From assembly GCF_025602895.1 (NCBI RefSeq), contig NW_026516226.1:124001-188000 (forward strand): 64,000 bases of DNA. The letters are read 5' to 3'. The stretch comes from Polychytrium aggregatum (Eukaryota > Chytridiomycota > Chytridiomycetes > Polychytriales). Shown in pieces: positions 28,889-33,786 of this stretch. The notes beneath the pieces were generated by a model that searched no databases, was not told where the DNA came from, and saw only the letters and a program-made list of their open reading frames with translations. The position numbers and the translations under genes are program-made. Position 1 is the first letter of the stretch. Each line of letters starts with the position of its first letter.

Positions 28889-29133
28889 GCGGAAGAAACT
28901 CTCTCCAGGAATTGAAACGAGAGGATGTGAAGTCATGGCCAAAATGAGGAATATGAATCGATTGGACAAATGGGACGGAATGCGATTGGGGAGAAAACAA
29001 TGGGCCGAGGAGAGAACTGGGAGGAAAGGGAAATGGCCATACGACAAAGAGACAGCCCCAAATGACCAATACACAATACACACCATGGGTGACCGAGATT
29101 CGAGCGAGAGTGGAGACGACGCACCATGGACAC

Positions 29134-29237
29134 CATCACAGCCATCACAGCCATCACAGCCATCACAGCCATCACAGCCATCACAGCCATCACAGCCATC
29201 ACAGCCATCACAGCCATCACAGCCATCACACCATCAC
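29134..29237. repeat. 9-bp tandem repeat (CATCACAGC), about 11 copies
   Basis: Perfect head-to-tail copies of CATCACAGC on the left arm, giving Ser-Gln-Pro, His-His-Ser or Ile-Thr-Ala peptides depending on frame. The mirror copy on the right arm (about 33586-33690) has the same length but several units changed to CATCACAGA. Confidence 0.95.
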
Positions 29238-29617
29238 AGCCCGCATTGCCCATCCGATATATTGACATCCCGCAAAGGCGCGAGCCGGTTCTGTGAAGAG
29301 GAGTGCTTGCGGGGAACGAGAGTGTGGGACTGGCGGATGTGCTTCCGAGACCGTCGCTGACGAGGGGATGAGCCAGCCGGCAAGGGCCGGCTCAATCACA
29401 ATACACATCCGAGGAAGTGGGAGTGGGGTCGAAGCAGAAAGCGATGGGTTTTGCCACGTTTGGACCACAAAGGCGACGGCATGAGACTGAAAGAGGAGCA
29501 GGGCACGGGGAGGGAGGGTATGGAAGACATGGAAGACCTGGGCGAGTGAATGGACAAGCAGATGAAGGAGTATAAGGAGTAAAGGCAAGAATGAATGGAC
29601 GAGCGAGTGGACGGGCG

Positions 29618-29668
29618 CATGGAGGAGTGAATGGAGGAGTGAATGGAGGAGTGAATGGAGGAGTGGAT
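29618..29668. repeat. 12-bp tandem repeat (GGAGGAGTGAAT), about 4 copies
   Basis: Direct repeats of GGAGGAGTGAAT lie on the left arm between the 9-bp repeat and the tRNA genes. The right arm carries the same array in reverse (about 33155-33205). Confidence 0.85.
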
Positions 29669-29820
29669 AGAAGGGAGAGGGAAGGGGAGCGAAGGGGAAG
29701 GGGAGCAGAGGAAGAGAGAGGCGTTGAGATTGGTGGCGATTGGTGGCGATGATTGTGGCGCTACTTGTGTCACGATGATAGTTTGGTCATGAAGGCTGTC
29801 GGGTTAATGCAGACAACAAC

Positions 29821-29892
29821 TCCGCATTGGTCCAGTGGCTAGGATTTCTCGCTCTCACCGAGACGGCCGGGGTTCGATTCCCCGATGCGGAA
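29821..29892 (+). tRNA. tE(CUC): tRNA-Glu(CTC), left arm
   Basis: A full cloverleaf can be drawn. The acceptor stem TCCGCAT pairs with ATGCGGA. The anticodon stem TCTCG/CGAGA closes a loop CTCTCAC with anticodon CTC. The T arm is CGGGG-TTCGATT-CCCCG and carries the B box. No intron. No T run follows before the tRNA-Thr gene 5 bases downstream, so the two are probably transcribed together. An identical copy lies on the right arm. Confidence 0.95.
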
Positions 29893-29897
29893 GACAT

Positions 29898-29970
29898 GCC
29901 TTCTTGGCTCAGTTGGCAGAGCGTCTGCCTAGTAAGCAGAAGGTCACCAGTTCAATTCTGGTAGAAGGCA
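29898..29970 (+). tRNA. tT(AGU): tRNA-Thr(AGT), left arm
   Basis: The acceptor stem GCCTTCT pairs with AGAAGGC. The anticodon stem TCTGC/GCAGA closes the loop CTAGTAA with anticodon AGT, read as inosine-GU. The T arm is ACCAG-TTCAATT-CTGGT. No intron. It begins 5 bases after tRNA-Glu and is followed at once by TTTTT, a Pol III stop. The right arm holds the same gene in reverse. Confidence 0.95.
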
Positions 29971-29975
29971 TTTTT
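29971..29975 (+). terminator. Pol III terminator (T5)
   Basis: TTTTT directly after tRNA-Thr, with another T5 about 12 bases later. It is the first T run after the tRNA-Glu start, so it would end both tRNAs. Confidence 0.75.
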
Positions 29976-30538
29976 GCTCGCTTTTTGCTGTCCATGCTGT
30001 CCGTGCTTCGATCTGTCTGCCACTGATCGCTCGCTCGTCTCTCTGCATGCTCTGATGCTCTGATGTTCTGGTGTCCCTCAGCCCTGTGCTGCACACTCAG
30101 TTCTGTATCCTCCATCATCCATCATCCATCCTCCATCCTCTCCCCTGTACACTCTACTCTGCTTTCCCACTGTCGGTCTCGGTTTCGGCTCCAGTTCTTC
30201 CGCTGTGATGTGTCTGTTGCTCCGTTGCTCCGTTGCTCCGTTGCTGACCCGGGTGGTGGTGCTGCATTATACCGCCAGCAGTCCATCACCACCCGGTCGT
30301 GCCGTTGCCCTGATCTCGGCCGACCCTGCTTTCTTTCTGCTGCCGCACCATTCCATCCAGCGTCGCCCTGCTCCACTCTGGCACCTCAGCCACACTTTAA
30401 TCCCCAATGCTTGTCATTGCATCTTCATCGTCTGCACCCAGTAGCTCGGGTGTGACTGTGCGGCTGCACTCTCTCGATATCGAATCTGTTGTGTCTCGCC
30501 TGCCAGAGTCATATACCCTGATTTTGCTTCGTCAATAA

Positions 30539-30610
30539 GGACCGATGGTGTAGTGGTTAGCATGCCAGCCTTCCAAGCTTGCGTCCCGGGTTCGAATCCC
30601 GGTCGGTTCA
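30539..30610 (+). tRNA. tG(UCC): tRNA-Gly(TCC)
   Basis: The acceptor stem GGACCGA pairs with TCGGTTC, with one G-T pair. The D region GTGTAGTGGTTAGCAT is typical of tRNA-Gly. The anticodon loop CTTCCAA has anticodon TCC, and the T arm is CCGGG-TTCGAAT-CCCGG. The anticodon stem CCAGC/GCTTG has one C-T mismatch at its second pair. TTTTT follows at 30613-30617. It is not duplicated because it lies in the spacer. Confidence 0.9.
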
Positions 30611-30612
30611 TC

Positions 30613-30617
30613 TTTTT
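30613..30617 (+). terminator. Pol III terminator (T5) of tRNA-Gly
   Basis: TTTTT two bases after the discriminator base of tRNA-Gly(UCC). Confidence 0.7.
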
Positions 30618-32847
30618 GCCCCATTCCCATCGCACCTCACCCCAATCTCTCACTTCATGTTTCTGCACCTTGCGTCTGTCGCCCATCCCCAACTCGCCGG
30701 CCCACCGACCAACCCGCAGAATTCGCGGCTCATCGTCGCTGCAACACATTTGCTTCATCGTCGCCACTGCGACCCAACACCTGTCCCCGGCATCAATTCG
30801 TTCTGTCCCTGCGATATCGCCATCCCCCAACTCATCGTCGCACCTTGGTTGGCTGCCCGCTGCTGTTCTGCCAATATCGGATTGGCTCTGGCTATGGCGC
30901 ATCATTCGTTCTTCCCCGGACCGGTCCACTGCGAGAGTATTTTGCAAAAACAGACAGCATCGGCATTGCCTGCGACGCCCTCCATCCTCGGAATTGTCGG
31001 ATCCGCTGGAGTCGCATCCCACTTTCAGACTTCCTCGAACTTGACTGCGACTGGCCCTTGGCCACACTCAGTCACACTCGGTCTCAATTCACCATGGACC
31101 GAATCTTTGTCTGCGGCACGGGCCAGCATGAGAACCCGACTGCTCACTGTTGCAGAAACCCCTCCACCTCCACGTCCCACCGATATGGAGTACGTCCCGC
31201 CTCGATCCCAGGCTCCAAAGGACTGCCCGCTCCTCGTCCCTTCCGCGACAGTCCTGTCTGAGGCAGTTGCACTCAGGCGTGGTGGACTCGCTGCTGCAGC
31301 CCGTTACTATTCCACACATCCATTTCGGTATCATCTCCATCATCTGCGAATCACTTCATCGATGCGACCCTCGATCTGGCAATCAGTATCCGTTCCATCA
31401 GCTTTGCTGGTCCACTCAGCGATGCTCACCACTCATGGCTAACAATTGGACGAGATTGTGTGTCGACCAGGGACAGATCGGTTGATCCCAGGAACAGGGC
31501 CGCTGCCATTCAACCAGCGAATTGCTGCGACGCTGATTACTACGACAACAACTGTTGCTGTGGTTGTCGGTGCCTCGTCGGCTGAGACAAGCTGCTCGTT
31601 GGAGTCGCAATCAAGATCATGTGGTGCATGCCTGATTTCCCCATAATGAGTGGACTTGCACTTGCATTTGAAGCTGTGGCTGGGAAATCCACGGCTGTTT
31701 GGTGGGCAGCTGGAGGTGCGAGGCTATGTAAGAGTGAGAGGCTGCTGCGAGACTTCAAATGCGGCTCGACATCGATCGGGACGATGGCAGTCGGTTCCGT
31801 CGGACGATGGATCAGCCAAACTCAACCTCATGGACAATGGTGCGTTGGTGATGCAGTTGGAGGGATGCGTGGTGGCAGAAGCCGACACAGGCTCAGAGAG
31901 CTTGATGAGTGGGTTGGTCCATATCATCCGTGAGGCCATATGTATGAGCACAAATCGGGGAGCTGGCCGAGTCAACTCGAGGGATGGCGAAGCTGGTATT
32001 TCCACAAGATCGAGTCGATTGTGGTGTGGGTTGGGCGATCATCAGTCGAAACCATATTAAGGCCAATACTTGTCGACACACAAGTGAGTGCTACTGATAG
32101 TCGGCACGAGCAGTCGGACTCAAGCAGCAAATAGCAGGAGGCGAAATGTGCGAGTAAAATGGAGGCGGAGATGCAACGATGGAGTAGCACCGACAATTGG
32201 AACATGGCGACTTTGATGGGAATGTCGGAGTGGATGTTGTGGCACCGTGGGTACAGATTGGGTGGAGCGGATGTGGGTTGTATCGGGAAAGGTGATACTG
32301 CATATGAGAGTGATGAGGAATGATGACAGCACCGAGAGTTGAGAGTGATTCGGAGGATAGTCAACAGAGCCATCGAAGCAAGGAGCAGTGAGACAGTGGA
32401 ACGATGAGAAAATGAATGGAGACGACAAGCATTGGGGATGAAAGTGTGGCTGAGGTGCCAGAGTGGAGCAGGGCGACGCTGGATGGAATGGTGCGGCAGC
32501 AGAAAGAAAGCAGGGTCGGCCGAGATCAGGGCAACGGCACGACCGGGTGGTGATGGACTGCTGGCGGTATAATGCAGCACCACCACCCGGGTCAGCAACG
32601 GAGCAACAGACACATCACAGCGGAAGAACTGGAGCCGAAACCGAGACCGACAGTGGGAAAGCAGAGTAGAGTGTACAGGGGAGAGGATGGAGGATGGATG
32701 ATGGATGATGGAGGATACAGAACTGAGTGTGCAGCACAGGGCTGAGGGACACCAGAACATCAGAGCATCAGAGCATGCAGAGAGACGAGCGAGCGATCAG
32801 TGGCAGACAGATCGAAGCACGGACAGCATGGACAGCAAAAAGCGAGC

Positions 32848-32852
32848 AAAAA
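32848..32852 (-). terminator. Pol III terminator (T5), right arm
   Basis: AAAAA on the plus strand, TTTTT on the minus strand, directly after the right-arm tRNA-Thr. Confidence 0.75.
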
Positions 32853-32925
32853 TGCCTTCTACCAGAATTGAACTGGTGACCTTCTGCTTACTAGGCAGAC
32901 GCTCTGCCAACTGAGCCAAGAAGGC
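32853..32925 (-). tRNA. tT(AGU): tRNA-Thr(AGT), right arm
   Basis: Exact mirror of 29898-29970: same stems, same AGT anticodon and the same flanking bases. A second, apparently intact copy. Confidence 0.95.
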
Positions 32926-32930
32926 ATGTC

Positions 32931-33002
32931 TTCCGCATCGGGGAATCGAACCCCGGCCGTCTCGGTGAGAGCGAGAAATCCTAGCCACTGGACCAATGCG
33001 GA
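32931..33002 (-). tRNA. tE(CUC): tRNA-Glu(CTC), right arm
   Basis: Exact mirror of 29821-29892 with the same CTC anticodon, and 5 bases upstream of tRNA-Thr in transcription order. Apparently intact. Confidence 0.95.
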
Positions 33003-33786
33003 GTTGTTGTCTGCATTAACCCGACAGCCTTCATGACCAAACTATCATCGTGACACAAGTAGCGCCACAATCATCGCCACCAATCGCCACCAATCTCAAC
33101 GCCTCTCTCTTCCTCTGCTCCCCTTCCCCTTCGCTCCCCTTCCCTCTCCCTTCTATCCACTCCTCCATTCACTCCTCCATTCACTCCTCCATTCACTCCT
33201 CCATGCGCCCGTCCACTCGCTCGTCCATTCATTCTTGCCTTTACTCCTTATACTCCTTCATCTGCTTGTCCATTCACTCGCCCAGGTCTTCCATGTCTTC
33301 CATACCCTCCCTCCCCGTGCCCTGCTCCTCTTTCAGTCTCATGCCGTCGCCTTTGTGGTCCAAACGTGGCAAAACCCATCGCTTTCTGCTTCGACCCCAC
33401 TCCCACTTCCTCGGATGTGTATTGTGATTGAGCCGGCCCTTGCCGGCTGGCTCATCCCCTCGTCAGCGACGGTCTCGGAAGCACATCCGCCAGTCCCACA
33501 CTCTCGTTCCCCGCAAGCACTCCTCTTCACAGAACCGGCTCGCGCCTTTGCGGGATGTCAATATATCGGATGGGCAATGCGGGCTGTGATGGTGTGATGG
33601 CTGTGATGGCTGTGATGTCTGTGATGTCTGTGATGGCTGTGATGTCTGTGATGGCTGTGATGGCTGTGATGGCTGTGATGGCTGTGATGGTGTCCATGGT
33701 GCGTCGTCTCCACTCTCGCTCGAATCTCGGTCACCCATGGTGTGTATTGTGTATTGGTCATTTGGGGCTGTCCCTCTGTCGTATGG

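Follow-up and report, generated by a model that had tools for sequence, protein, structure and literature searches.

An inverted duplication of tRNA genes

We examined a palindrome at positions 29037 to 33786 of a 64,000-nucleotide window of the Polychytrium aggregatum genome, the window being the whole stretch analysed and part of contig C157 in an assembly of 64.7 Mb and 418 contigs. The left arm (29037..30415, plus strand, 1379 bp) and the right arm (32424..33786, minus strand, 1363 bp) are reverse complements of one another, delimited by self-comparison of the window and global alignment of the arms, and enclose a spacer of 2008 bp (30416..32423, no strand assigned). Each arm carries an intact tRNA-Glu (CTC) and an intact tRNA-Thr (AGT) gene, lying at 29821..29892 and 29897..29971 on the plus strand in the left arm and at 32931..33002 and 32852..32926 on the minus strand in the right arm. 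A tRNA-Gly (TCC) gene lies inside the spacer (30539..30610, plus strand). All five genes were called by ARAGORN and confirmed by Rfam. An initial annotation of this DNA had described an inverted duplication with these boundaries, nearly identical arms and intact tRNA genes, and our comparison returned the same arms and the same genes.

The two arms differ by six substitutions and one 16-bp gap over 1363 columns of the global alignment. The gap amounts to two 8-bp GTTGCTCC repeat units, and five of the six substitutions fall within the outer 200 bp, the site of a 9-bp CCATCACAG tandem array (29133..29241 in the outer left arm; a mirror copy with some variant units at 33582..33690 in the outer right arm; no strand assigned to either). 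Arm length and identity exclude a chance origin of the duplication, which was the sole inverted repeat of at least 100 bp found in the window. The hallmarks of a DNA transposon, a transposase gene and a target-site duplication, were both missing at this locus, as had been claimed: none of ten open reading frames (ORFs) from the arms, spacer and adjoining sequence matched a Pfam family above the cut-off (best E 0.032, DUF805), and the outer ends had no abutting direct repeat, the longest word common to the 15 bp beyond each end being 4 bp. The similar GC content of arm, spacer and flanks (0.547-0.571) gives no indication that conversion at this locus is GC-biased.

Arm agreement and spacer orientation in two contigs

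The locus is also present on a second contig, C416, with the same arms and the same boundaries. The left 10-kb flanks of C157 and C416 aligned straight with 5 mismatches and 4 gap positions (99.9% identity), as did the right 10-kb flanks with 16 mismatches and 27 gap positions (99.6% identity). The tRNA-Gly spacers aligned in minus orientation only (98.9%), so that the spacer of C416 (C416:143594-145599) is inverted between collinear flanks. The similarity of the two contigs suggests that they are two haplotypes of one locus, and the prediction that the spacer and its tRNA-Gly gene could flip is borne out by the pair.

We then scored site patterns across an alignment of the four arms, left and right from each contig. 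Five of seven two-against-two substitutions and three indels split the contigs, with both arms of each contig agreeing, while the other two substitutions split left from right and lie no more than 14 columns from the outer end. Nine more substitutions were unique to one arm, and the length of the 9-bp array varied. At a different palindrome, read on contigs C367 and C356, five substitutions and one indel split the contigs with both arms agreeing; the only substitution of the left/right kind is at column 1727 of 1732, and a further indel was unique to one arm. For the two arms of a contig to match at positions that distinguish the contigs, they must have exchanged sequence after the two sequences separated. 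We take this pattern as the mark of arm-to-arm gene conversion, cleaner at C367/C356 than here, and it bears out the earlier suggestion of a palindrome kept alike by conversion. The differences that persist cluster near arm ends (55 of 99, in end bins covering ~29% of the length, at eight loci), and at the palindrome at C157:566097-577156 all four arm differences (3269 columns) fall within the last 100 bp. This locus thus combines the attributes of an arm-to-arm converting palindrome: inverted arms of high identity, a spacer that is single within the locus, haplotype differences present in both arms (as at C367/C356) and a spacer found in both orientations.

Divergence between the two contigs is unevenly distributed. 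The spacers differ at 20 of ~2008 positions (1.0%) and the arms at 7 of 1345 and 13 of 1363, against 6 of 5978 (0.1%) for the 3-kb flanks of both sides together, so that spacer and arms are far more divergent than these flanks. The palindrome is common to both contigs and the spacers are 1% apart, so the duplication is not simply recent; of the initial proposal of a recent inverted duplication, the duplication stands and its simple recency does not.

A paralogous palindrome, P, lies ~130 kb away on C157 and holds a full copy of the spacer (C157:285836-287842) in the orientation of C416. The three spacers of C157, C416 and P carry 10, 10 and 12 private substitutions, patchily clustered, and are all about equally distant from one another; a partial fourth copy on contig C67 equals that of P across the 1739 columns compared. 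Similarity between this locus and P starts 7 bp ahead of the tRNA-Glu start, with the inner arm and spacer present at both loci and the tRNA-Glu isoacceptor differing (CTC here, TTC at P). As the C157 and C416 spacers are as far from each other as they are from P, spacer cassettes may move between loci. An in-place flip followed by, or mixed with, inter-locus exchange fits these data best.

tRNA palindromes elsewhere in the genome

The palindrome sits in a eukaryotic nuclear genome, where it is one of many tRNA-cluster palindromes. Genes near it look eukaryotic, with reading frames broken as if by introns, and include a glycosyltransferase family 8 gene, a Vps8-like gene and an alanyl-type tRNA synthetase. 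Beyond the initial annotation, we found that the duplication is not a lone event: nine further palindromic tRNA loci were read, counting alleles once (P, C367/C356, C113, two on C13, C312/C70, C157:566-577 kb, C224 and C39/C257), and position lists point to more. Arm lengths run from 162 bp (C39) up to 3.3 kb (C157:566097-577156) and spacers from 1.7 to 22 kb; on C13 one palindrome is nested in the spacer of another. Ordinary genes are present in several of the spacers, namely part of eIF3d (C113), a gene for a Sel1-repeat protein (C367) and one for an MFS-type protein (C312). Across 325,651 bp examined, 15 inverted repeats of at least 100 bp contained tRNA genes, and the two flagged without them were pieces of the same arms; nearly all of this sequence was selected for its tRNA genes, so the absence of tRNA-free palindromes is not proven by it.

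For six isoacceptors we listed gene copies across the genome (Phe 17, Gly 6, His 16, Thr 29, Asp 20 and Arg 18), scoring every first-pass candidate, dropping no row (four weaker Thr copies, 79-80% identical, and a partial one were retained) and counting haplotypes separately. Of the 106 copies, 53 had a copy of the same tRNA on the opposite strand within 25 kb. Neighbouring same-tRNA pairs numbered 34, against a summed expectation of 0.79 under random placement, and were inverted in 25 cases and direct in 9 (p=0.009; this and the p-values below assume more independence of haplotypes, arms and clusters than exists). When the three His pairs at loci already counted for Thr were left out, 23 pairs were inverted and 8 direct (p=0.011). 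Six exact copies of the tRNA-Gly (TCC) gene of the spacer were found in the genome, none of which is paired with its own inverted mate within 25 kb. Matches to other Pol III genes (at least two for 5S rRNA and at least four for U6) were too few to inform as controls.

A module of Ser-Pro-Phe-Lys-Ala tRNA genes occurs once at C224:475052-477323, whereas at C157:566097-577156 it forms a palindrome. On C224 the adjoining Val-Ile part is palindromic instead, so that mirroring has affected different parts of one cluster at the two loci. The C224 copy at 475 kb was also considered as an unduplicated allele of C157:566-577 kb; this was rejected, as the compared outer flanks do not match, and it was taken as a paralogous cluster.

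The flanks of the tRNA clusters have a characteristic composition. A sharp switch from purine-rich to pyrimidine-rich sequence across the cluster was seen in 15 of 16 regions, for example between 29200-29820 and 29972-30500 of the window. Among 17 clusters picked by hand, each standing for one arm or allele set out of 44 rows, a strong left-purine/right-pyrimidine switch on the same strand was present in 13, compared with 1.1% of 4752 overlapping background positions, and all 17 lean from purine to pyrimidine. Over all 44 clusters, with arms and alleles taken separately, mean skews of the nearest 200 bp of flank were +0.29 and -0.26. The switch is identical seen from either strand and therefore cannot separate transcription from replication as its cause.

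Several further arrangements were recorded alongside these loci. On C46 (194287-209706), six tRNA positions mirror around one centre (pair sums 403993) in a manner resembling a nested palindrome, judged by positions only. Mirror arrangements of ~20 kb with two tRNA-Phe genes per side occur at C112:1348926-1369543 and C164:7932-28543. At C39:93620 and C257:464921 the two contigs agree at 99.98% rightward and have no collinear match leftward, C39 having an additional Trp-Arg pair; the break is either a structural difference or an assembly join. Within the palindrome spacer at C157:566-577 kb, a 443-aa open frame (C157:571939-573267, minus strand) had a faint Cas12f1-like TNB domain match at E 0.021, below the cut-off, and no match in a PDB search; it may encode a TnpB/Fanzor-like protein.

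Origin, upkeep and known systems

Together, these observations make it likely that this locus is one of many tRNA-cluster palindromes, with arms that exchange and a spacer that occurs in both orientations, shaped by recombination and possibly of fold-back origin. A number of results weigh against this reading. Half of the counted tRNA copies (53 of 106) have no inverted mate within 25 kb, and a test with a T-arm motif gave 21 inverted to 10 direct pairs (p=0.07; 100 of 164 matches used, 92 clusters after tandem matches were collapsed, 31 neighbouring pairs within 25 kb), which is too weak because the motif mixes isoacceptors. In the arms of C312/C70, 13 sites are of the left/right type and one is private, with no conversion-type site among them, so that haplotype differences are not shared by both arms there. 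At P the arms are 96.8% alike, while the left arms of P and C67 are 99.8% alike (one C67 arm compared), and 21 of the differences between the arms of P fall in a single interior 100-bp bin. Some palindromes thus show conversion and others do not. The spacer was inverted in only one of six contig pairs, C157/C416; it had the same orientation in C367/C356, C312/C70, C39/C257, C112/C164 (2 kb of the middle read) and P/C67 (part compared). Finally, 1.0% divergence in the spacer and 0.1% in the flanks are more than a simple recent in-place flip can account for by itself.

The rival explanations fare differently against the same data. An assembly artefact, be it a fold-back or a consensus in which one arm was overwritten with the other and spacer orientation left to chance, could draw on contig C67, which ends within such a spacer, and on the loss of collinearity between C39 and C257, each a possible assembly break. 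The spacer is nonetheless unique and the outer flanks distinct, two contigs have identical boundaries, contig-specific differences are present in both arms, and palindromes recur at nine other loci; we therefore regard an artefact as improbable, and the initial argument against a fold-back gains from C416, with its same arms and collinear flanks. If each palindrome had instead arisen by its own recent inverted duplication and its arms had never exchanged since, they would be alike through youth only, in keeping with arms 99.4-99.6% alike and with a series running from the short arms of C39 to the long ones of C157:566 kb. Yet the palindrome is common to both contigs while left and right arms agree where the contigs differ, a pattern that a shared duplication would not produce without exchange, and we consider this account quite unlikely as a general one, although it may hold for C312/C70. 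A mobile element with terminal inverted repeats, or a retroelement pair, would explain why a ~3-kb unit is present twice on one contig; it is very improbable given that the arms of C367 and C113 have only the tRNA pair in common, that the ten ORFs fall below the Pfam cut-off, that no target duplication was seen and that other spacers carry ordinary genes, such as the eIF3d part on C113.

The orientation of the spacer could also have arisen with no flip in place, if a cassette of inner arm, spacer and inner arm had been copied between this locus and P by ectopic recombination in their shared tRNA genes. The near-equal distances and patchy private substitutions of the three spacers, the orientation shared by C416 and P, and the start of similarity just before tRNA-Glu all suit such copying. 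Against it, no full spacer copy is near-identical to that of the other locus, so that none stands out as donor or recipient, and inversion followed by exchange accounts for the same data. We consider cassette copying a serious candidate, if somewhat short of an even bet.

In the reading that we prefer, exchanging palindromes of possible fold-back origin, the flank switch is a possible cause of the palindromes: a purine-rich 5' flank and a pyrimidine-rich 3' flank could anneal with each other and favour fold-back copying. Palindromes might then originate by template switching at replication forks stalled at tRNA genes, which is the weaker part of the proposal. The arms would be maintained by homologous recombination between the inverted repeats, mostly non-crossover (gene conversion), and rare crossovers or ectopic exchange would invert or swap the spacer. 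The chief effect is probably a doubled, co-evolving dose of tRNA genes, with no selected function implied. A broader proposal, which we hold to be speculative and rather doubtful, is that tRNA clusters are hotspots that repeatedly convert themselves to palindromes, the flanks of nearly every cluster examined making it almost self-complementary so that stalled forks fold back and copy it in mirror image, and that they then serve as genome-wide exchange ports, with arms that supply the homology for inverting or swapping spacers, keeping tRNA copies uniform while the sequence between them is reshuffled.

What keeps scattered tRNA genes uniform, and why rearrangement breakpoints fall at tRNA genes, are open questions. 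In this genome, graded arm lengths and identities, single and duplicated versions of a module and two versions of several loci amount to natural replicates, in which conversion tract borders, palindrome birth and spacer flips can be read straight from sequence.

Parts of this picture have counterparts elsewhere. The Dictyostelium genome contains nearby pairs of identical tRNA genes spread genome-wide, and so resembles the present one in having nearby duplicate tRNA genes throughout. Organelle inverted repeats form flip-flop isomers, with both spacer orientations produced by recombination, and there is one large repeat per organelle genome; both orientations are found here as well, in palindromes that are nuclear and small. 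The inner centromere repeats of fission yeast, at centromeres with a CENP-A core and heterochromatin, carry tRNA genes, with one set of repeats per chromosome, whereas here contig C157 alone has three palindromes, and ordinary genes occur in some spacers. According to PMC10813616, Rad51-dependent recombination between the fission yeast repeats is preferentially non-crossover, and a crossover likely inverts the centre; the likeness lies in recombining inverted repeats with an invertible centre, and the difference in their place at centromeres. Mammalian sex-chromosome palindromes are described by Jackson et al. 2021 (PMC8981503) as having arms >99% alike through arm-to-arm conversion, seen also in primate X palindromes, and spacers and arm borders that are unstable over time. 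They share with our locus near-identical inverted arms with arm-to-arm conversion, and differ in scale: their arms measure tens of kb, some >1 Mb, according to the same paper (PMC8981503), compared with 1.4 kb at this locus and 0.16-3.3 kb over many loci at tRNA clusters. Our literature search, judged by title or start of abstract, returned no paper on tRNA palindromes across a nuclear genome. Gene-converting palindromes were already known, and the genome-wide tRNA version is new.

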